Assembly (NCBI GenBank): GCA_015493635.1
Contig: WGCU01000067.1
Span: 1 to 64,000, forward strand
Source: Spirochaetaceae bacterium
GTDB lineage: Bacteria; Spirochaetota; Spirochaetia; B11-G9
DNA: 64,000 nucleotides
Direction: 5' to 3'
In this document: one piece after another, positions 35,998 to 45,477 of the stretch
Position numbering within the stretch: position 1 is the first letter of the stretch
Layout of the letters: the number at the start of each line of letters is the position of its first letter
Notes under the pieces: generated by a model
What the model saw: the letters and a program-made list of their open reading frames with translations, nothing else
The model's database searches: none
What the model was told of the DNA's origin: nothing
Position numbers and translations under genes: made by a program

Positions 35998-36055
35998 AGC
36001 TGGACTACCTGTCTGTTGAGTTCGAAAAGACCATTATGAGACAGAGTCTCCTTAC
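35998..36055. repeat. 58-bp direct repeat, right copy
   Basis: Perfect copy of 32747-32804. Reading on in the frame of the 32440 ORF gives SLL-T-stop, and the last bases overlap the stop codon of the thioredoxin-like gene. Confidence 0.97.
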
Positions 36056-36447
36056 GTAGCACCAATAAGGTCGAGAATACCCTGTTCACTGATTGCTCCC
36101 GCCTTGTATTCTTTAATGATGCCCTCTTCCACCACAACAAACGAAGGGGTACCCATGACACTGAGTTTCTGCGCAGTTTCCATATCCTTGGAAATATTAA
36201 TGCTGAAGATATCTCTCCGCTTCTTCTGCAGTGATTTTACAATGGGTGTTATTGCCTTGCAGGCTCTGCAGTTTGTGCTGTAAAAATAGAGGAGAACCCG
36301 GTCACCTTTCTTTATCCGCCTGCCGTACGCTCCTCCAAGAGAAGGTACTTTCTTTCCTTTTTTTAATTTCATGCGCAGAATCATTGATAACTGCAGTATG
36401 GTAAAACCACCGATAATTACCGCAATAATAATGCCGACTACAACCAT
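36052..36447 (-). CDS. Membrane-anchored thioredoxin-like protein
   Basis: A 131-residue protein with an N-terminal TM helix (MVVVGIIIAVIIGGFTILQL) and a thioredoxin fold: active site FYSTNCRACKAITP (Cys60-x-x-Cys63, CRAC) and cis-proline GTPSFVVV. The topology would place the domain in the periplasm or cytoplasm depending on orientation; the positively charged residues after the TM suggest a cytoplasmic domain. It follows the MFS gene without a gap. Confidence 0.8.
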   Translation of the reverse strand: MVVVGIIIAVIIGGFTILQLSMILRMKLKKGKKVPSLGGAYGRRIKKGDRVLLYFYSTNCRACKAITPIVKSLQKKRRDIFSINISKDMETAQKLSVMGTPSFVVVEEGIIKEYKAGAISEQGILDLIGAT

Positions 36448-37695
36448 TTACGTCTCCTGAGATAATTTGTCAAATCTCTCGCAGGTTACCTTCCGTGAAA
36501 AATAAAAACTGCTCAAGATAAGTATACTTGTTAAAATAAATATTACGGTATATCCAAACCGCTGTATGATAATCCCCGCAAATACAGGATATATAAGAAC
36601 GCCGATACTGCCAAGACCGGACAGACCGGTATATATCGCTCTGTTCTCATCTGTTGAAATCTCCAACAGCATTCCCGGCAGAGAAATCTGACGGGCAGCA
36701 AGAACAACACCGGAGAGAAGAAAAAGTGAAAGGTACAAGAGACGGTTACCGTGCAGCAGAAGGGCAAGAACGGGAAGAGCTGCTCCGGTAATAATGAAGA
36801 TGGAAAGGATCCCCTTGTACCGCTGGCTTTTTGAGGTAAACCGGTAGATTATGGTTGAAACGACCATTCCCGTTACCTGAAGCAGCAGGAAATTCCCTGT
36901 GTCACTGCTTGTAAGGCCAAAATTCTTTTTTGCATAGGCTATAAGAAAAGGAATGATTGCGAACCCCAGGCTCACAGTATTGGTGAGGTAGAGATAGTTC
37001 CGCAGGTTTTTATCACCAACAAAGGCATCTTTTAACAAACCAAACCGTTTCCGGTAGGATATTTTTTCTTTGACAATCATCGGCTTTTCTTTAATAACCC
37101 AGAAACCGATGGTTGCGGTTAACAACAATCCGCCGGCAATAAGAAAAAGAGCACTGTAATTTTTTGGATACGCGAGAAGCCGCAGTGTACGGCGGGCAAG
37201 AATAGCTGATGCAAGAATACCGATACTTGCGAGGGTCTGTTTGTATATAAAAAATTTCTTCCGGGACGCAGTATCAATTGCCCTCCCGAGGATATCGGTA
37301 TACGAAATACCGGCAAATGCTCCGGAAAAGGAAAAGATCGTCATAAGGATGAGTATGGAGGCAATAATGGCACTTCCAGACAACGCTCCCGCATAGGCAA
37401 GTATCGCGCCCATAAAAAGGAGTGCTCCAACCCTCAGGTAAATCCCTGTTATAAGAAACTTCCGCTTCCGTTCCCGGTGGGTAAGAAAGGAAGCAAAAAA
37501 GATCCCCATAAACCCGTTCCCCCCAACCATAACGGCAGTAAGGATACCAAGATGAACCGGTGTGCCCCCGGATTGAATAAGGAGCGTCGGGATAACAGTA
37601 TTAACATCCATAAATTTCTGGGCAAGCGCCAGAAACACCGCGTGCCAGATAAATGCTTTAAAGTTACGTTTTGAATAATCTGGATCTTCTATCAT
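36448..37695 (-). CDS. Major facilitator superfamily protein
   Basis: A 415-residue permease with about 12 TM helices; substrate unknown. Begins MIEDPDYSKRNFKAFIWHAVFLALAQKF. It starts 7 nt after the deoB stop. A TATAAT (37707-37702) overlaps the deoB end and could provide an additional start. Its position at the tail of the microcompartment operon could mean nucleoside or sugar uptake, but nothing in the sequence proves this. Confidence 0.72.
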   Translation of the reverse strand: MIEDPDYSKRNFKAFIWHAVFLALAQKFMDVNTVIPTLLIQSGGTPVHLGILTAVMVGGNGFMGIFFASFLTHRERKRKFLITGIYLRVGALLFMGAILAYAGALSGSAIIASILILMTIFSFSGAFAGISYTDILGRAIDTASRKKFFIYKQTLASIGILASAILARRTLRLLAYPKNYSALFLIAGGLLLTATIGFWVIKEKPMIVKEKISYRKRFGLLKDAFVGDKNLRNYLYLTNTVSLGFAIIPFLIAYAKKNFGLTSSDTGNFLLLQVTGMVVSTIIYRFTSKSQRYKGILSIFIITGAALPVLALLLHGNRLLYLSLFLLSGVVLAARQISLPGMLLEISTDENRAIYTGLSGLGSIGVLIYPVFAGIIIQRFGYTVIFILTSILILSSFYFSRKVTCERFDKLSQET

Positions 37696-37702
37696 CCTGC
37701 CA

Positions 37703-38878
37703 TTATATAAATGTTTCCCCTTTTGGAAACCCTTCCAGATTAAAAAAACGGGTTATTGACCGGGCTATATCAGAAAACTGATTTCTTATTCCCAGGGAAG
37801 TTCCCATTTTCCCCTTCCGGTAACTGAGAAGCGGTACGTGCTCTCTCGTATGATCAGTCCCCCTGAACGTAGGATCACAACCGTGATCGGCGGTTACAAT
37901 AAGAAGGTCATCCTCTCCAAGCATCTTCAATAACCGTCCAAGATGCGTATCAACAGCCTGTACAGCGTCATGGTATCCCTGCGGGTCTCTGCGGTGGCCG
38001 TAGTTCATATCGGTATCCACATAATTTACAAAGATAAACTCTTTTTTATCTGTCTTTTTACCCAGGAGCGCTTCTGTCCGTTTGATACAGGCAGAATTAC
38101 CCTTGTCGTGGTAACTGTCATTGATACCCCTTTCACCGAAAATATCACCTATCTTTCCGACTCCCACCGTGTTGACATCCCGCGCTTTTAGAAAATCGAA
38201 GAGGCTTTCCCCGTCGTATGCTATGGAAAAATCTTTTCTCCCGCTTGTCCGGGTAAAGTTCCCCGGTTCACCAATAAACGGACGGGCTATTACTCTGCCG
38301 ACCTGATATTCATCACAGAGATCCCGGGCAGCCGCACACATACGGTACAGCTCTTCCACGGGAATAACATCTTCATGAGCCGCTATCTGGAAGACAGAAT
38401 CCCCTGAGGTATAAATAATCGGTTTCCCTGTTTTAATATGTTCAGCTCCCAGTTCTTCAATTATTACCGTTCCGGAAGCGGCCTTGTTTCCCAGCACACC
38501 GCGGCCTATTTTTTTAGAAAAATCCCGAACCAGTTTTTCAGGGAAAGAAGGATACTCAGAGGGGAAAACAGTAAACGGCTTCGTCAGTTCAAGACCGGCA
38601 ATCTCCCAGTGACCGGTGGTCGTATCTTTCCCGGGGGATTTTTCCTTCATAACACCGAAAGACGCCCGCGGTTTATCCGCAGGAGCACATCCGGGAAGTA
38701 TATTCCCCAGCAGCTTAGAAGCATTACCCAGCCCCATTTCCTGCAGATAAGGCCATTTTGCTCCGCCGACTGTTTCACAGATATGCAGTGCCGTATTTGC
38801 ACCCTGATCTCCGTATTTCTCCGCGTCGGGAAGATATCCAATTCCGAAACTGTCTATAACAATAATTACTGCTCTCAT
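37703..38878 (-). CDS. deoB: Phosphopentomutase
   Basis: Interconverts (deoxy)ribose-1-phosphate and -5-phosphate. The 391-residue alkaline-phosphatase-fold enzyme has VIVIDSFGIGYLPDA, PGKDTTTGHWE, VNYVDTDMNYGHRRD and the metal site VTADHGCDPTFRGTDHTREHVPLL. Distal gene of the microcompartment operon, 9 nt after deoC. It has no N-terminal encapsulation helix, so it probably acts in the cytosol, feeding the compartment from nucleoside phosphorolysis. Confidence 0.93.
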   Translation of the reverse strand: MRAVIIVIDSFGIGYLPDAEKYGDQGANTALHICETVGGAKWPYLQEMGLGNASKLLGNILPGCAPADKPRASFGVMKEKSPGKDTTTGHWEIAGLELTKPFTVFPSEYPSFPEKLVRDFSKKIGRGVLGNKAASGTVIIEELGAEHIKTGKPIIYTSGDSVFQIAAHEDVIPVEELYRMCAAARDLCDEYQVGRVIARPFIGEPGNFTRTSGRKDFSIAYDGESLFDFLKARDVNTVGVGKIGDIFGERGINDSYHDKGNSACIKRTEALLGKKTDKKEFIFVNYVDTDMNYGHRRDPQGYHDAVQAVDTHLGRLLKMLGEDDLLIVTADHGCDPTFRGTDHTREHVPLLSYRKGKMGTSLGIRNQFSDIARSITRFFNLEGFPKGETFI

Positions 38879-38887
38879 TTTCCTCTC

Positions 38888-39697
38888 CTAATATCCAGAA
38901 GTGATTTCCTCACCCTTAACAATCTTTACGCCGCCGCTTGTTCCAAGACGGGTAGCACCTGCTTCTATCATGGCAACAGCATCCGCAAAGGTCCGGACAC
39001 CGCCGGCAGCTTTCACTCCCATTTTCGGACCAACCGTCCGGCGCATAAGCATTACATCTTTAACGGTTGCTCCCCCTGTTGAAAACCCGGTTGAGGTCTT
39101 TACGTAATCGGCACCCGCTTTTTTGACAATTTCACAGGCGAGCACCTTTTCCTCATCCGTCAGCAGTGCCGTTTCTATAATAACCTTCAAAAGAGCCCGC
39201 TGTCCGCATGCCCGTACAACCCACTTTATATCCTCTTCAACCGTTTTCAAGTCACGTTCTTTCAGGGCGCCGATATTCATGACCATATCTACTTCATCTG
39301 CCCCCTCTTCTATCGCATGCCGGGCTTCAAACCCCTTGCTCCGGCCGCTCATGGCGCCTAAAGGGAATCCGACAACAACACATACCTTGACACCGCTTCC
39401 CCGCAGGTTTTTCGCGCACCGGGTTGTCCAGGTTGTATTAACACAAACTGAGTGAAACTGATACTCCCTCGCTTCGCTGCACAGCTTGTCGATTTGCGGA
39501 CCCGTCGCATCCGCCTTCAGCAGCGTATGATCAATGTACTTTGCCACATCTGCCGGCACAAGAACCTTGTTATTATTTTCTGAAGAAGCAGTCTCTAAAA
39601 AAGCAGGTTGAGGAGTTTCAACAGTACCTTCCGCTGAATCTTTCAACTGCGCCATTACTTCACGGGTTATTTTTTCTATTAATGCTTTATCATCCAT
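38888..39697 (-). CDS. deoC: Deoxyribose-phosphate aldolase with encapsulation peptide
   Basis: Splits 2-deoxyribose-5-phosphate into glyceraldehyde-3-phosphate and acetaldehyde. The 269-residue protein has an N-terminal amphipathic helix ([16 protein letters not shown]) and a flexible linker of about 30 residues before the aldolase core ([13 protein letters not shown]). This is the layout of microcompartment encapsulation peptides. The Schiff-base lysine lies in [14 protein letters not shown], and NIGALKERD and [11 protein letters not shown] are family motifs. It begins 1 nt after rpiB. The released acetaldehyde is the likely reason for a shell. Confidence 0.93.
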
Positions 39698-39698
39698 T

Positions 39699-40202
39699 TT
39701 ATATCCTGTTTCCTCTCTCTACTGCCATCATTTTATTTATACGTGCCCAGTGTCTGCCGCCTTCAAACCGTGTTTCGAGCCATACTTTTACCATGCTGCA
39801 TAATGCTTCAGGCTCATGGAGGGGGCCGCCGAGGGTCAGAACGTTGGCATTATTATGCTTTCTGCTGTTTTCAATCGTACGCATATCGTAGCAAAGCGCA
39901 GCACGGATACCCCGTACCTTGTTGCATACCATGGAGGATCCGATTCCGGCACCGTCTATCATGATACCTCTGTCAGCTTCTCCCCGGGCTACATACCGTG
40001 CCACCTTCTCAGCATAATTGGGATAGTCGACACTTTCTTTTGAGAAGGTTCCGATATCCGTCACCGTGTAGCCCAGAACTTCCAGATACTTCCTCAGGAT
40101 CTCTTTTGCCACAAAACCGCCATGATCTGAACCGATAACAACCTTTGAAACCGTATCTTTCTCATTATGGACAGAGAAATCATCCTCTTTTATCATTATC
40201 AT
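39699..40202 (-). CDS. rpiB: Ribose-5-phosphate isomerase B
   Basis: Interconverts ribose-5-phosphate and ribulose-5-phosphate. The 167-residue protein has [24 protein letters not shown], the active-site region [26 protein letters not shown] and [10 protein letters not shown]. An extra about 20 residues precede the normal start. They are polar and do not form an obvious amphipathic helix. Overlaps the preceding BMC-P gene by 23 bp. Confidence 0.9.
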
Positions 40203-40473
40203 TCTCCTTGTTTTCTATACTGTCCACTATCCCGGTAATAACAGTCCGGACCGGCTGTCCGGTTAGCCCGAGTATGATACCCGCGGAACCGCCTTCATCA
40301 AGGACAAGAACAGTATCACCTTTACCGGCCTGCACCGTATCGACAGCGACAACTGGTTTCGCTGTAAAGCTTCCATCCGGTCGTACCGGTCTGACGAGCA
40401 GGAGTTTATGCCCCTCAAGGGACCTTATTTTTACCGTTGAAACAACCGGACCAAGCACCCGCGCAAGAATCAT
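40180..40473 (-). CDS. BMC-P (EutN/CcmL) vertex protein 4
   Basis: A 97-residue pentameric shell vertex protein: ILARVLGPVVSTVKIRSLEGHKLLLVRPV, VAVDTVQAGKGDTVLVLDEGGSA and AVITGIVDSIE-like C-terminus. Caps the vertices of the icosahedral shell. One of four BMC-P genes; overlaps the next by 4 bp and rpiB by 23 bp. Confidence 0.9.
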   Translation of the reverse strand: MILARVLGPVVSTVKIRSLEGHKLLLVRPVRPDGSFTAKPVVAVDTVQAGKGDTVLVLDEGGSAGIILGLTGQPVRTVITGIVDSIENKENDNDKRG

Positions 40474-40736
40474 AAGCCTTCCGCCTTGTCTATGATACCG
40501 ACAATCGTTGCGTCCGAGGGATTAAACCAGTTTTCCAGTGCAAGTGCGGCTTCCCTGCCCCCTTCATAGAGAACCATATCTCCCGTACCGGCCTGAACAG
40601 TATCACAGGCAACAAGCGGTATGCCGGTTTCCTGGTACGCTTCATCCAGAGGCTGAAGTAATAAAAGCGGTACCCCGTACAGCGCGTCAGCTTTATTACT
40701 GCATACTACCGAACCAATAATCTGCCCAATTCTCAT
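40470..40736 (-). CDS. BMC-P (EutN/CcmL) vertex protein 3
   Basis: An 88-residue EutN/CcmL fold: RIGQIIGSVVCSNKADALYGVPLLLLQPL, VACDTVQAGTGDMVLYEGGREA and ATIVGIIDKAE. The glycine-rich GTGDMVLYEGG loop lines the pentamer pore. 12 nt after the aldehyde dehydrogenase gene. Confidence 0.9.
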   Translation of the reverse strand: MRIGQIIGSVVCSNKADALYGVPLLLLQPLDEAYQETGIPLVACDTVQAGTGDMVLYEGGREAALALENWFNPSDATIVGIIDKAEGL

Positions 40737-40748
40737 TTCATCCTCTTT

Positions 40749-42167
40749 CTACACAATTCTAAAATAATCAATTAAGGCACAGCGCCGTTCACGGGTAAAT
40801 GTCCGGGCACGGGTAAATCCTTCGCCCGTTGGACTTGCAATGGTAAAAGAAGTAAACCCCGCTCCGCCGAATCCCATTCCGTTAAAATTTGATCCGTTCT
40901 TTACAAAAAGAGAACAATTTACAAGCTTTGCCATCTTCGAAAGTTTCGCAATATTAAGGGAATGCATGGAAGCCGAGTGTCTGAAACCATGTTCCAGATC
41001 AAGCGCCAGATCAATGGCATCATCCACCGTATCAACCCTGACCAGAGGAATAACAGGCATAAGCTGCTCGGTCCAGAGCAGAGGATGAGAAGCATCAACC
41101 TCCAGAAGAAGAATTTTGGTTTCTTCGGGAATTTTCAGTCCTATCTCAGCAGCAATATAGTCAGCACTTTTACCCACATACGTCTTGTTCGGAGCGCCTT
41201 CATATCCCTTTCTGCCGGGATCCGCTATAACAAGATCGGTCACCTTCTTTATCTGGTCTCCTGTCAGTTCAAAAGCGCCTGCTTTTACCATTTCACTCTT
41301 CAACCGGTCGGCAACAGACCGTACAACAACAATTTCTTTCTCGCATATACATACAATATTGTTATCAAAGCCGGCTCCGTTAACCAGATCACGGGCAGCT
41401 TTTTCAATATCAGCCGTTTCATCAACAACCGACGGAGGATTTCCGGGACCCGCGGCAATAACCTTCTTTGATGTTTTCATTGCCTGCCCGACAACCCCCG
41501 GGCCTCCGGTTACCGTAAGAAGATTTATGAGAGGATGCTGCATCATTTCCTTTCCCGTTTCAATAGTCGGACTTTTAACGGTCGTAATGCAGTTTGCCGG
41601 TCCTCCAGCTTTTTGTATTGCTTCATTCAGCAGACCGACCGTGTAAACGGAAACATCTTTGGCAGCAGGATGCGCGTTAAAAACAACAACGTTCCCCGAG
41701 GAAATCATACTGATGGAATTGTTGATAATGGTTTCTGTAGGATTGGTACTGGGAGCGATAGCTCCAATTACTCCGTAGGGTGCACGCTCTGTGAGGGTTA
41801 AACCGTGATCATCGGAGAACACGGAAGGCTGCACATCTTCAACCCCCGGAGTCATATGCGCCGCAAGAAGATTCTTCTTGATTTTATCACCTGCTTTGCC
41901 CATGCCTGTTTCTTTAACCGCTCGTTCTGCCAGTTGATTGACATTTCCCTCCACCGTCCGGCGCATCCCTGCAATCATTGCTCTCCTGATCTCAAGTGAT
42001 ACTTCAGAAAATACTTTAAAAGCCTTCGATGCTTCATAAACAGCTTTGTCCATGGTATCAAACACTCCCGGTATAGTAAAACTACCGGAAGATGAGTCAG
42101 TAGAAACTGAATATTCTTCTACAACCTTCTCGACAATACCTTTTATTATCTTTTCATCAATTTCCAT
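40749..42167 (-). CDS. CoA-acylating aldehyde dehydrogenase of the microcompartment
   Basis: A 472-residue member of the EutE/PduP group, expected to oxidise the acetaldehyde made by DeoC to acetyl-CoA with NAD and CoA. The N-terminus (DEKIIKGIVEKVVEEYS followed by a Ser-rich linker) looks like an encapsulation helix. Family motifs: APSTNPTETIINNSISMISSGN, TGGPGVVGQAM, AGPGNPPSVVDETADIEKAARD and the catalytic-cysteine region GFDNNIVCICEKE. Overlaps the upstream BMC-T gene by 11 bp. No phosphotransacylase or alcohol dehydrogenase gene accompanies it. Confidence 0.9.
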   Translation of the reverse strand: MEIDEKIIKGIVEKVVEEYSVSTDSSSGSFTIPGVFDTMDKAVYEASKAFKVFSEVSLEIRRAMIAGMRRTVEGNVNQLAERAVKETGMGKAGDKIKKNLLAAHMTPGVEDVQPSVFSDDHGLTLTERAPYGVIGAIAPSTNPTETIINNSISMISSGNVVVFNAHPAAKDVSVYTVGLLNEAIQKAGGPANCITTVKSPTIETGKEMMQHPLINLLTVTGGPGVVGQAMKTSKKVIAAGPGNPPSVVDETADIEKAARDLVNGAGFDNNIVCICEKEIVVVRSVADRLKSEMVKAGAFELTGDQIKKVTDLVIADPGRKGYEGAPNKTYVGKSADYIAAEIGLKIPEETKILLLEVDASHPLLWTEQLMPVIPLVRVDTVDDAIDLALDLEHGFRHSASMHSLNIAKLSKMAKLVNCSLFVKNGSNFNGMGFGGAGFTSFTIASPTGEGFTRARTFTRERRCALIDYFRIV

Positions 42168-42714
42168 ATATAAATCCTCTCATATCAGCATGAGGTCCGG
42201 GAATAACAACTTTCCGGTACAACTGCCCTTTATCCTCCGCAAAGGGAGCGGCAAGGTTCATTGCGTCTTCAATATCTCCCAGATCGCCTGAAAAGGTAAC
42301 AACAGCTTTACCGCCGTATTCATTTCCTGACAGAATGCCGAGGACTGTGATCCCTGTTGCCTTAACAGCCATATCCGCGGCCTCAATACCGGTGGTAATG
42401 GAAAGCGTTTCAAGGATTCCGAGGGATTCAGGTGACGCAGTAACTTCCCTCATCAGGAGAGCATTGACGATCTGTTCATCGATATTTTTCAGAAAAAGCT
42501 GATCAATCAACGAACGCTGACCTATATCAATCCCCCGTTCCATTGCGTATTCTACGGAAGCAACATCCCCTTCAATAATAATGAGGTACTTTCCGGGATT
42601 AACCGGTTCTGCCCTTACTATTGAAACCGGCGCGGCTTTCACCATTCCATCAAGTGCCAGGAGACCATCGGCAATACTGCTAAGCTCTAGAATTCCCAAT
42701 ACGTGTATGTTCAT
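42157..42714 (-). CDS. BMC-T shell protein (tandem BMC domains, single-layer type)
   Basis: A 185-residue trimeric shell protein made of two BMC domains: domain 1 starts VLGILELSSIADGLLALDGMVKAA, domain 2 SLGILETLSITTGIEAADMAVKATG, each followed by the beta segment (KYLIIIEGDVASVEYAM; KAVVTFSGDLGDIEDAM). PduT/PduB-like in plan. No clear Fe-S cysteine. It overlaps the neighbouring BMC-P gene by 4 bp. Confidence 0.9.
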   Translation of the reverse strand: MNIHVLGILELSSIADGLLALDGMVKAAPVSIVRAEPVNPGKYLIIIEGDVASVEYAMERGIDIGQRSLIDQLFLKNIDEQIVNALLMREVTASPESLGILETLSITTGIEAADMAVKATGITVLGILSGNEYGGKAVVTFSGDLGDIEDAMNLAAPFAEDKGQLYRKVVIPGPHADMRGFIYGN

Positions 42715-42998
42715 TTTTTAAAGACTATCTTCCCTTTTTCCTCAATGAGATCAATAATACCGACAATAACCGCGTCTACCGGTTTCTCTTTTGTTTCCTG
42801 GGTCTGTCTCGCAGAGCTGCCCCGGGCAACCATTACCACCTCTCCTGCTCCTGCATTCACCGTATCGTAAGCAACAAACACAGATCCGGCAGGTTCTCCC
42901 CGCTGATTACAGGGTTCCACAAGCAGGTATCTTCCTTCAGGTACTGTATCAGCCTGAATTGAAGCAACGAGGGTTCCTTTAATGCGGGCAGTTATCAT
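42711..42998 (-). CDS. BMC-P (EutN/CcmL) vertex protein 2
   Basis: A 95-residue vertex protein: [53 protein letters not shown] and [12 protein letters not shown]. Overlaps both flanking shell genes by 4 bp (ATGA). Confidence 0.92.
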
Positions 42999-43297
42999 GT
43001 ACGGTCATCCTTCCGGTAGACAATGCTGCCGTCCATTTCCAGATTATCAACAATACCGATCACCGCCGCATCACCGGGTTTACCGGTGGTAAGGCCGGTC
43101 TGCCGTGCGCTGCTTCCACTTACATAGAAGACAACTTCTCCCTCTCCGGCACCTACGGTATCCAGGGCAACAACGTATTCCCCCGTTCCCTTCATATCCG
43201 CAGGATCTATTTTCTCCAAAAGAAGCAGTTTTAACCCTTCAAGTCTCGGTTCCTTTGCGCTGGAAACAACGTTTCCTGTTACACGTGCAAGTACCAT
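42995..43297 (-). CDS. BMC-P (EutN/CcmL) vertex protein 1
   Basis: A 100-residue vertex protein: [53 protein letters not shown] and [10 protein letters not shown]. Most similar by eye to vertex protein 2 through the shared GSSARQT segment. It is 3 nt after the BMC-H gene. Confidence 0.92.
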
Positions 43298-43300
43298 CGG

Positions 43301-43600
43301 TTATTTTTTTACCTTGTTTTGTCCAAGGGGAAATACCGCATCAACACTTTCATGCGGCCGCGGAATAATATGAACAGATACTATTTCCCCGACTCGTTCA
43401 GCAGCACGGTTTCCTGCATCCAGTGCCGCTCTTACCGCGGCAACATCACCTCGGATAATTGCCGTCGTATATCCGCCGCCTATCTTTTTATAATTTACCA
43501 GCTCCACCGCGGCCGCTTTAACCATCGCATCCGATGCTTCAACCATCGCAGCAAATCCTTTTGTCTCTATCATTCCCAGTGCATTTCCGGTTATATTCAT
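43301..43600 (-). CDS. BMC-H hexameric shell protein 2
   Basis: A 99-residue single BMC domain: [58 protein letters not shown] and [18 protein letters not shown]. It is a close paralogue of the other BMC-H at 44238. The KIGGGYT segment forms the central pore, likely passing small charged metabolites. Confidence 0.95.
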
Positions 43601-43612
43601 CTGTTTCTCTCC

Positions 43613-44230
43613 CTATTTTCCTGTTATATCGGCAAGTCTGGCTTCTACAATCTCTTTACTGACAAGAACTTCCGATTCCTTACCAGCTATATATATCCGT
43701 CCGTATTTCCCGTATCCGGTAACATTGATAATATTTATGTTTGAAGCCTTTTCCGCTTCGTTAGCAGCATAATATGCATACCCCGCAGGCTCAATTTCCA
43801 GAATAAAGAGGGTATCACCCCGCAGAACCATGTTTCCGTAACGTACTTTGTTTATCAGCTGGGCATGATGGTCACTTATATTTCTGATAAGCTGGCTTGT
43901 CAGAATTTTGGGCTTCAATCTGTCAGTTTCCTGCAGTCCCAGTTCATCCAGTACTGCCTGCCCTGCCTGCCGGGCGTCTCCCTGTCTGTCGGAATGGACT
44001 TCCAGCAGTCCGAAAGAACGTTCAACAACCTGAATCCCCGGCTGTACCCCTGTAGCTTTAAGAGCAACATCAGTAAGTCTGTTTATCTCAATCCCCGGAG
44101 CTATTTCAATAATGGAACAAGCCTGTCCCGCTACGGGAAAGTATCCTTTTGAAATGGTACACATGTACGATGCCATCTGAAGCTGCAGAGCGTCTATAAA
44201 ATTATATGTCCTCAGTTCTACATTATCCAT
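43613..44230 (-). CDS. BMC-T double-stacking type shell protein
   Basis: A 205-residue protein with two permuted BMC domains. It resembles the gated, stacking trimers of the Haliangium BMC-T2/T3 kind (recalled similarity): LRTYNFIDALQLQMASYMCTISKG, IIEIAPGIEINRLTDVALKATGVQPG, VVERSFGLLEVHSD and FILEIEPAGYAYYAANEAEKAS. Such trimers form openable pores for larger cofactors or sugar phosphates. Lies between the two BMC-H genes. Confidence 0.85.
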   Translation of the reverse strand: MDNVELRTYNFIDALQLQMASYMCTISKGYFPVAGQACSIIEIAPGIEINRLTDVALKATGVQPGIQVVERSFGLLEVHSDRQGDARQAGQAVLDELGLQETDRLKPKILTSQLIRNISDHHAQLINKVRYGNMVLRGDTLFILEIEPAGYAYYAANEAEKASNINIINVTGYGKYGRIYIAGKESEVLVSKEIVEARLADITGK

Positions 44231-44237
44231 ACTGTTC

Positions 44238-44525
44238 CTACTTGTTAAGCGGTAAAACCGCGTCTACCGTACTGTCCGGCCGTGGAATCAAGTGAACCGA
44301 AATTACCTCTCCTACCCGTTCAGCAGCCTTGCTTCCGGCATCGAGTGCGGCACGGACAGCAGCAACATCGCCTCGTACAATAACGGTAATATAGCCTCCG
44401 CCTGTCTCCTCATAACGATTCAGTTCTACTTTTGCCGCTTTTACCATTGCGTCTGCCGCTTCAACAACAGCTGCAAAACCTCTTGTTTCGATCATACCGA
44501 GAGCGTTTCCCTGTTTTTCTTCCAT
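44238..44525 (-). CDS. BMC-H hexameric shell protein 1
   Basis: A 95-residue BMC domain: [58 protein letters not shown] and [18 protein letters not shown]. First gene of the operon, with GGAGG before its ATG and a DeoR-type palindrome 15 nt further up. Likely the main facet protein. Confidence 0.95.
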
Positions 44526-44539
44526 AGATCCTCCATCTA

Positions 44540-44563
44540 TAAATGTTATTTTTTTAACATTTA
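44540..44563. promoter_or_regulatory. Palindromic operator at the microcompartment promoter
   Basis: TAAATGTTA (44540-44548), six T, TAACATTTA (44555-44563): perfect 9-bp arms, placed just downstream of the -10. Its core TGTTATTTTTTTAACA is 15/16 identical to the site before the deoR-type gene. Confidence 0.75.
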
Positions 44564-44570
44564 TTGTTTT

Positions 44571-44598
44571 AGTATACTACATAATTCTACAGTGTCAA
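44571..44598 (-). promoter_or_regulatory. Microcompartment operon promoter
   Basis: Minus strand TTGACA (44598-44593), 16-bp spacer, TATACT (44576-44571), about 50 nt before the first BMC-H ATG. Confidence 0.75.
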
Positions 44599-44678
44599 GA
44601 GTTGTGAAGTACCTTGTTCATTGATTCACAATATTATCGATACAATGATAAAAATAACTTGTTCAAATTGTAGAAATG

Positions 44679-44694
44679 TGTTAATTTTTTAACA
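44679..44694. promoter_or_regulatory. Palindromic operator before the DeoR-family gene
   Basis: TGTTAA-TTTT-TTAACA, ending 3 nt before the ATG at 44698. The site would cover the ribosome-binding region or promoter start, consistent with autoregulation. Centre-to-centre distance to the other operator is about 135 bp. Confidence 0.7.
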
Positions 44695-44697
44695 GTC

Positions 44698-45477
44698 ATG
44701 ATACGAAAACAGGAAGAACGGCTTCAAACCATCCTCAATGTCCTCAAACTGACTAATCCGGCAACCATTAACAAACTGGCCCGGACGCTGGAGGTTTCCC
44801 ACATGACGATACGGCGGGACATTGAAATACTTGAACGCGAGCAGAAGGTTGAAGTGTTCCATGGCGGTGTCATGCTTCTAAACTCCGGAGAACCTGAATA
44901 TATGAGAGAGTATTCTCTCGCTGACGCTACGTCGATTATGCGTGAAGAAAAAAAGAGGATTGGTTTAAAAGCGGCATCCCTCATTGAAAATGACAGTTCA
45001 ATAATACTTGATACGGGCTCAACCACGGAACTCATTGCCAGATCTCTTTCCACGGACCTTTCCATAACCATAATTTGTTATACGCTTAACGTTCTTATAA
45101 ACGTGTCAAAACTAAAAGACGTGTATATAATATTTCCCGGCGGACACTTTCATAAAAATACATTGATGTTTGAAAGTGCTGAAGGGCTTGAGCTTATCAG
45201 AAAAAACAGAGCCTCAGTCGCATTTGTTTCCGCCAGCGGGATAAGCCTTTCCATGGGAGTTACCTGTTCCAACAGTTATGAGCGGGAGGTAAAAAATTCA
45301 ATTATGAAATCTTCTCTTAAAAAAATACTTGTTGCGGATTCTTCCAAATTTGATGTTGTCCACAGCACCTACTTTGCGGATATCAATAATTTTAACGAGA
45401 TTATCACTGATAAGGGAATCCCTGACCAGTACAGGGAATACTGTTTAGAACACCATATAAAACTCTCACTTGTATAG
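44698..45477 (+). CDS. DeoR-family transcriptional regulator
   Basis: A 259-residue repressor. The N-terminal winged helix reads RLQTILNVLKLTNPATINKLARTLEVSHMTIRRDIEILE; the C-terminal DeoR sugar-phosphate sensor domain has LDTGSTTELIARSL and KKILVADSSKFD. Divergent from the microcompartment operon with a shared 172-bp intergenic region holding two near-identical palindromes. It is the likely local regulator, with a sugar phosphate such as deoxyribose-5-phosphate as inducer (inference). Confidence 0.9.
   Translation: MIRKQEERLQTILNVLKLTNPATINKLARTLEVSHMTIRRDIEILEREQKVEVFHGGVMLLNSGEPEYMREYSLADATSIMREEKKRIGLKAASLIENDSSIILDTGSTTELIARSLSTDLSITIICYTLNVLINVSKLKDVYIIFPGGHFHKNTLMFESAEGLELIRKNRASVAFVSASGISLSMGVTCSNSYEREVKNSIMKSSLKKILVADSSKFDVVHSTYFADINNFNEIITDKGIPDQYREYCLEHHIKLSLV

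Follow-up and report, generated by a model that had tools for sequence, protein, structure and literature searches.

We conclude, at a probability of about 85%, that two near-identical palindromes in the spacer between a bacterial microcompartment (BMC) operon and a divergent DeoR-type regulator gene are operators of the DeoR-clade repressor that this gene encodes, the first acting on the BMC operon, the second serving autorepression, and with deoxyribose-5-phosphate releasing the protein; we infer binding, repression, the inducer, and the oligomeric state from sequence. The locus is likely to be a DeoR regulon rewired onto a sugar-phosphate-utilizing (SPU) BMC, with deoxyribose-5-phosphate as the presumed inducer.

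Results

Genes of the locus

The window is a stretch of 64,000 nucleotides from a Spirochaetaceae bacterium (contig WGCU01000067.1). The regulator gene (44698-45477, plus strand, 259 aa) combines HTH_DeoR and DeoRC domains and is assigned as a DeoR-type repressor from its domain matches and from the tree described below. On the minus strand, domain searches reveal an operon that begins with a BMC-H shell protein (44238-44525) and continues with a CcmP-like BMC-T shell protein (43613-44230), a second BMC-H shell protein (43301-43600), two BMC-P (EutN/CcmL) vertex proteins (42711-43297), a PduT-like BMC-T shell protein with two BMC domains (42157-42714), a CoA-acylating-type aldehyde dehydrogenase of the PduP/EutE subfamily (40749-42167), two more BMC-P proteins (40180-40736), ribose-5-phosphate isomerase B (RpiB, 39699-40202), deoxyribose-phosphate aldolase (DeoC, 38888-39697) with an N-terminal extension, and phosphopentomutase (DeoB, 37703-38878), the last clear gene of the operon. 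The shell set amounts to two BMC-H, two BMC-T, and four BMC-P proteins. After deoB, on the same strand (36052-37695), there is a reading frame for an MFS-type membrane protein of 415 aa, which has no NCBIfam match, and a thioredoxin-like gene; these may be transcribed together with the BMC operon.

SPU loci that encode DeoC and RpiB have been described before, and the relevant passages of Axen 2014 (PMC4207490) and Sutter 2021 (PMC8217296) propose for them a role in DNA-sugar degradation. Compared with those passages, and with PMC8217296 in particular, our locus is of the SPU type: it encodes a DeoC-type aldolase and RpiB together with an aldehyde dehydrogenase and shell proteins. It differs from the SPU loci described there in also having deoB. 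The same passages mention neither a regulator nor an operator for SPU loci, and a literature search that covered few subscription journals found no relevant paper that links microcompartment, DeoR, and operator in spirochaetes. In the passages of PMC4207490 that concern them, GRM5 and PVM loci resemble ours in having a DeoR-family gene within a BMC locus; they differ in breaking down fucose and rhamnose via a class II aldolase, and the likeness is one of gene content.

Two palindromes at divergent promoters

The spacer between the minus-strand operon and the plus-strand regulator gene (44526-44697) is 172 bp long and 75% A+T. Putative operator 1, TGTTATTTTTTTAACA (44544-44559), lies just 3′ of the predicted BMC operon start point, at about +6 to +21, and putative operator 2, TGTTAATTTTTTAACA (44679-44694), overlaps the regulator's own −10; neither palindrome is assigned to a strand. 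The two differ at a single base (15/16 identical) and start 135 bp apart, exactly as the original prediction had it. The BMC operon promoter, which had been called near consensus, is indeed present (TTGACA-16-TATACT, 44571-44598, minus strand) and is the best of the region, with a score of 11/12; its TTGACA occupies 44598-44593 and its TATACT 44576-44571, with a spacer of 16 bp. The putative regulator promoter (TTGTTC-17-TAATTT with a TG before the −10, 44659-44687, plus strand) runs inside operator 2. It is a weak match to consensus, and we place it there because its CTTG box stands at a constant distance from the operator in seven genomes.

Operator 2 had also been described as lying just before the deoR-type ATG. 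This is true here, but the position that stays constant in 7/7 genomes is that of the regulator's −10, and proximity to the ATG is peculiar to this genome. The ATG (44698) stands 3 bases past operator 2, and there is no Shine-Dalgarno sequence in 44679-44700, so we predict a regulator mRNA with little or no leader. The corresponding gap is ~25 bases in G001 and ~44 in the g3 genomes, which have a clear Shine-Dalgarno sequence. A weak middle site, TGTTCATTGATTCACA (two mismatches, from 44615), does not occur in the sister genomes, and we discarded it.

Conservation in the family and the class

We compared this genome with six relatives (Spirochaetes MAGs), whose orthologous regulators are 51-69% identical; a seven-row alignment query of the genome contigs gave matches where a single-protein query gave none. 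Throughout this family (7/7 genomes), TGTTAATTTTTTAACA, or its single variant TGTTAAAATTTTAACA, aligns without gaps behind a CTTG(C/T)(A/T)A-like box, always the same distance downstream of it, and coincides with the regulator's −10. The position of operator 1 is kept in all seven testable genomes as well: a second copy, which reads TGTTAAAA(A/T)(A/T)ATAACA on the operon strand, follows the TTGACA/TATAAT-type promoter of the first BMC gene by ~9-11 bases, and this promoter type is itself kept in the seven genomes. The regulator and the BMC operon are separated by ~6 kb in G002 and by ~9 kb in G003, with unrelated genes between them, and are on different contigs in G006, and each keeps its own site. 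Thus, the neighbors changed while the sites stayed, which ties the sites to these promoters. Paralogous regulators in G004 and G006 (L016 and L017), which are related to this regulator but form a distinct member of the DeoR clade, have the palindromes TGTTACCTTAATAACA and TGTTACTATGGTAACA / TGTTACTATAGTAACA upstream, 22 bp apart.

Across the class, we set 18 BMC-linked regulators (17 from the class and one from an Atribacteria locus) against 53 other DeoR-family genes. TGTTA-N6-TAACA with at most one mismatch was present within 200 bp upstream of 15 of the 18 (shuffles: mean 0.38, maximum 2). When 400-bp regions were compared, the same tolerance gave 15/18 BMC-linked regulators versus 3/53 other genes, and the exact site 10/18 versus 1/53, counts that are not all independent because some of the compared genomes are closely related (e.g., G117 and G177). 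Three of the 18 BMC-linked regulators lack a recognizable site. With no motif presupposed, TGTTA-N6 was the most frequent of all 5-bp inverted arms at spacings of 0-12.

In these relatives, sites are spaced 21 bp apart in six lineages, 22 bp in two, 32 bp in three, and 62-64 or 94-95 bp in several others; the array spacings (21, 32, 63, and 95 bp) are multiples of the helical turn, and chance alone would give a partner at 21/22 bp in about 0.4% of cases. Such phased tandem sites suggest, from their layout, cooperative binding on one face of the DNA. The tandem TGTTA-N6-TAACA-type sites upstream of the regulator at the loci L117, L118, L120, L128, L129, and L066 are exactly 21 bp apart.

Specificity in the genome and reach of the regulon

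TGTTA-N6-TAACA occurs at 8 places in the 3.27-Mb genome, versus 6 for a reversed-pattern control, and thus shows no enrichment as a bare pattern. The T-tract-centered 16-mer occurs in this genome only at the two places in the spacer. Five of the other six TGTTA-N6-TAACA places fall inside predicted reading frames, one of which is a 61-aa frame that is possibly no gene; the sixth, TGTTAAAGTTTTAACA on contig C83, is the only clearly intergenic one and lies 5′ of a BMP/PnrA-type ABC transporter operon. The concern attached to the original prediction, that the 16-mer might be common at unrelated sites, was therefore not borne out by the genome scan. Sites with one mismatch elsewhere were considered as regulon members and rejected, being mostly intragenic or near genes of unrelated function (a nickel transporter, a peptidyl-prolyl isomerase, and a peptide-binding protein).

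The same DNA word stands 5′ of the BMP/PnrA-type ABC transporter operon in 7/7 family genomes. On contig C83 this operator (L050, 3900-4030) immediately follows the genes for a pyrimidine-nucleoside phosphorylase and an OmpA-like protein, and the gene for the BMP-type binding protein closes the operon; in the g3 genomes the word is 5′ of the binding protein, and a PNP_UDP_1-family nucleoside phosphorylase follows further down in at least G004. The word is also found at the promoter of the pyrimidine-nucleoside phosphorylase, where it covers the extended −10, in G002, G003, and G005 (exact) and in G006 (one mismatch); the pyrimidine-phosphorylase promoter of this genome is without the site. The transporter operator, on C83 and at the equivalent places in G001-G006, lies upstream of the apparent −35, a position that is unusual for a simple repressor and is not accounted for by simple blocking. 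A weak, imperfect second copy lies 22 bp downstream at the transporter in G000 and G001.

Relation to E. coli DeoR

The upstream region of MG1655 deoC (L152), our positive control, yielded TGTTAGAATTCTAACA and TGTTAGAATACTAACA, 599 bp apart, which are the published DeoR palindromes (PMC5326754). Both sites in the window follow TGTTA-N6-TAACA, and their core is identical to that of the E. coli DeoR operators. The regulator belongs to the DeoR family (PF08220, 42.6 bits against a cut-off of 21; PF00455, 138.1 bits against 31.8). Its best NCBIfam model is DeoR (PRK10681, 164.4 bits, short of the equivalog cut-off of 244), followed by AgaR (135.5 bits). In a maximum-likelihood tree, the BMC-linked regulators form a group with E. 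coli DeoR, itself long-branched (branch support 99/92 and 93/81), and AgaR, SrlR, YgbI, YciT, FucR, and CsqR fall outside it; UlaR, also on a long branch, was not placed with certainty, and GlpR, a pseudogene in the E. coli strain, was left out. Judged by operator, model, and tree together, with a score below the cut-off, the regulator appears to sit in the wider clade of DeoR and probably works in a DeoR-like way, but does not qualify as a strict equivalog.

Like the E. coli DeoR regulon (deoCABD, nupG, and tsx, with the operators deoO1, deoO2, and deoOE), the spirochaete regulon has several operators with an identical core and takes in DeoC, DeoB, a transporter operon, and, in sister genomes, nucleoside phosphorylase genes. 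The E. coli operators have a GAATTC/GAATAC center, whereas the spirochaete sites have a T-tract or A/T center. Unlike E. coli DeoR, the spirochaete regulator is adjacent to its target, divergent, and apparently autoregulated, and its main target is the BMC operon. Spacings differ too: 99-135 bp, or tandem arrays at 21/32 bp, in spirochaetes versus ~600 bp in E. coli. E. coli DeoR is released by deoxyribose-5-phosphate (PMC5326754).

Discussion

In a spacer this rich in A+T, the palindromes might be chance matches, and single 5-6-5 palindromes are not rare in such DNA: any two of them arose in 327 of 5000 dinucleotide shuffles of the 172-bp spacer. Two that are at least 15/16 alike arose in none of the 5000, and conservation in the seven genomes and across the class already refutes a chance origin, the probability of which we consider vanishingly small. 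Nor do the palindromes look like elements that act as RNA, whether leader hairpins or terminators. Operator 1 does lie inside the predicted 5′ leader of the BMC mRNA, but little of operator 2 would be transcribed because it sits on the regulator's −10, the transporter copy is upstream of its promoter, the stem is nearly all A/T, and the core equals that of a known protein-binding operator. A search for a riboswitch gave no Rfam match, there is no terminator at either site, and both readings were rejected; we regard action as RNA as very improbable.

The original prediction was that the regulator binds both sites, perhaps by looping, and represses in both directions. One part of this holds up: conservation, co-occurrence with the clade, and the E. 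coli core argue that both sites are operators of the adjacent DeoR-type regulator over both divergent promoters. A short loop, in which one repressor oligomer would bridge the ~135 bp and repress both promoters, could form here, given that E. coli DeoR makes loops when its operators are ~300-600 bp apart, with looping detectable up to about 5 kb; loops have been observed by electron microscopy (PMC8053113). Four family genomes also retain two sites in the intergenic region, and the multi-site arrays of relatives are spaced at multiples of the helical turn. In the family of the window, however, the paired palindromes are 135, 123, 100, and 99 bp apart (12.9, 11.7, 9.5, and 9.4 turns) and thus share no helical phase. 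Each promoter retains its site even where the two are 6-9 kb apart or on different contigs, and each site is placed where repression from it alone is feasible. The sequence evidence does not favor a specific 135-bp loop, and we consider one rather unlikely. We lean instead toward two unlinked local operators, with autorepression only and no bridging in this lineage, and with cooperative binding side by side in relatives. The position of a site at each promoter, the absence of a conserved phase, and the separation in G002, G003, and G006 speak for this arrangement, although full repression by E. coli DeoR needs several operators (PMC5326754) and lone strong sites without a partner are a minority among the distant relatives.

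If the palindromes are operators of the divergent DeoR-clade repressor, then in the absence of inducer a dimer or higher oligomer on 44544-44559 would block the BMC promoter at its start point, and repressor on 44679-44694 would cover the regulator's own −10, resulting in autorepression. Uptake of DNA or nucleosides, followed by phosphorolysis and the action of DeoB, would give rise to deoxyribose-5-phosphate, on which the operon's own DeoC acts. Deoxyribose-5-phosphate would then release the repressor, so that the shell, aldolase, aldehyde dehydrogenase, and isomerase are switched on together, and the shared operator would link the BMP/PnrA-type ABC transporter operon with the BMC locus, as it would the pyrimidine-nucleoside phosphorylase in sister genomes. 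A different sugar phosphate, such as ribose-5-phosphate, could instead act as inducer.

A broader proposal, on which we are evenly divided, is that the TGTTA-N6-TAACA code is common to gammaproteobacteria and spirochaetes and has been wired onto a BMC that degrades DNA sugars, and that the phased tandem arrays were reduced in this lineage to one site per promoter, which let the regulator and the organelle genes separate while remaining co-regulated. The combination of a DeoR-clade regulator, the E. coli DeoR operator, and a regulon that extends to an ABC transporter, and in several of the genomes also to a nucleoside phosphorylase, would provide independent support for a DNA-sugar function of these compartments. 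This reading predicts deoxyribose-5-phosphate as the inducer and supplies a DNA word with which more members of the regulon may be found.
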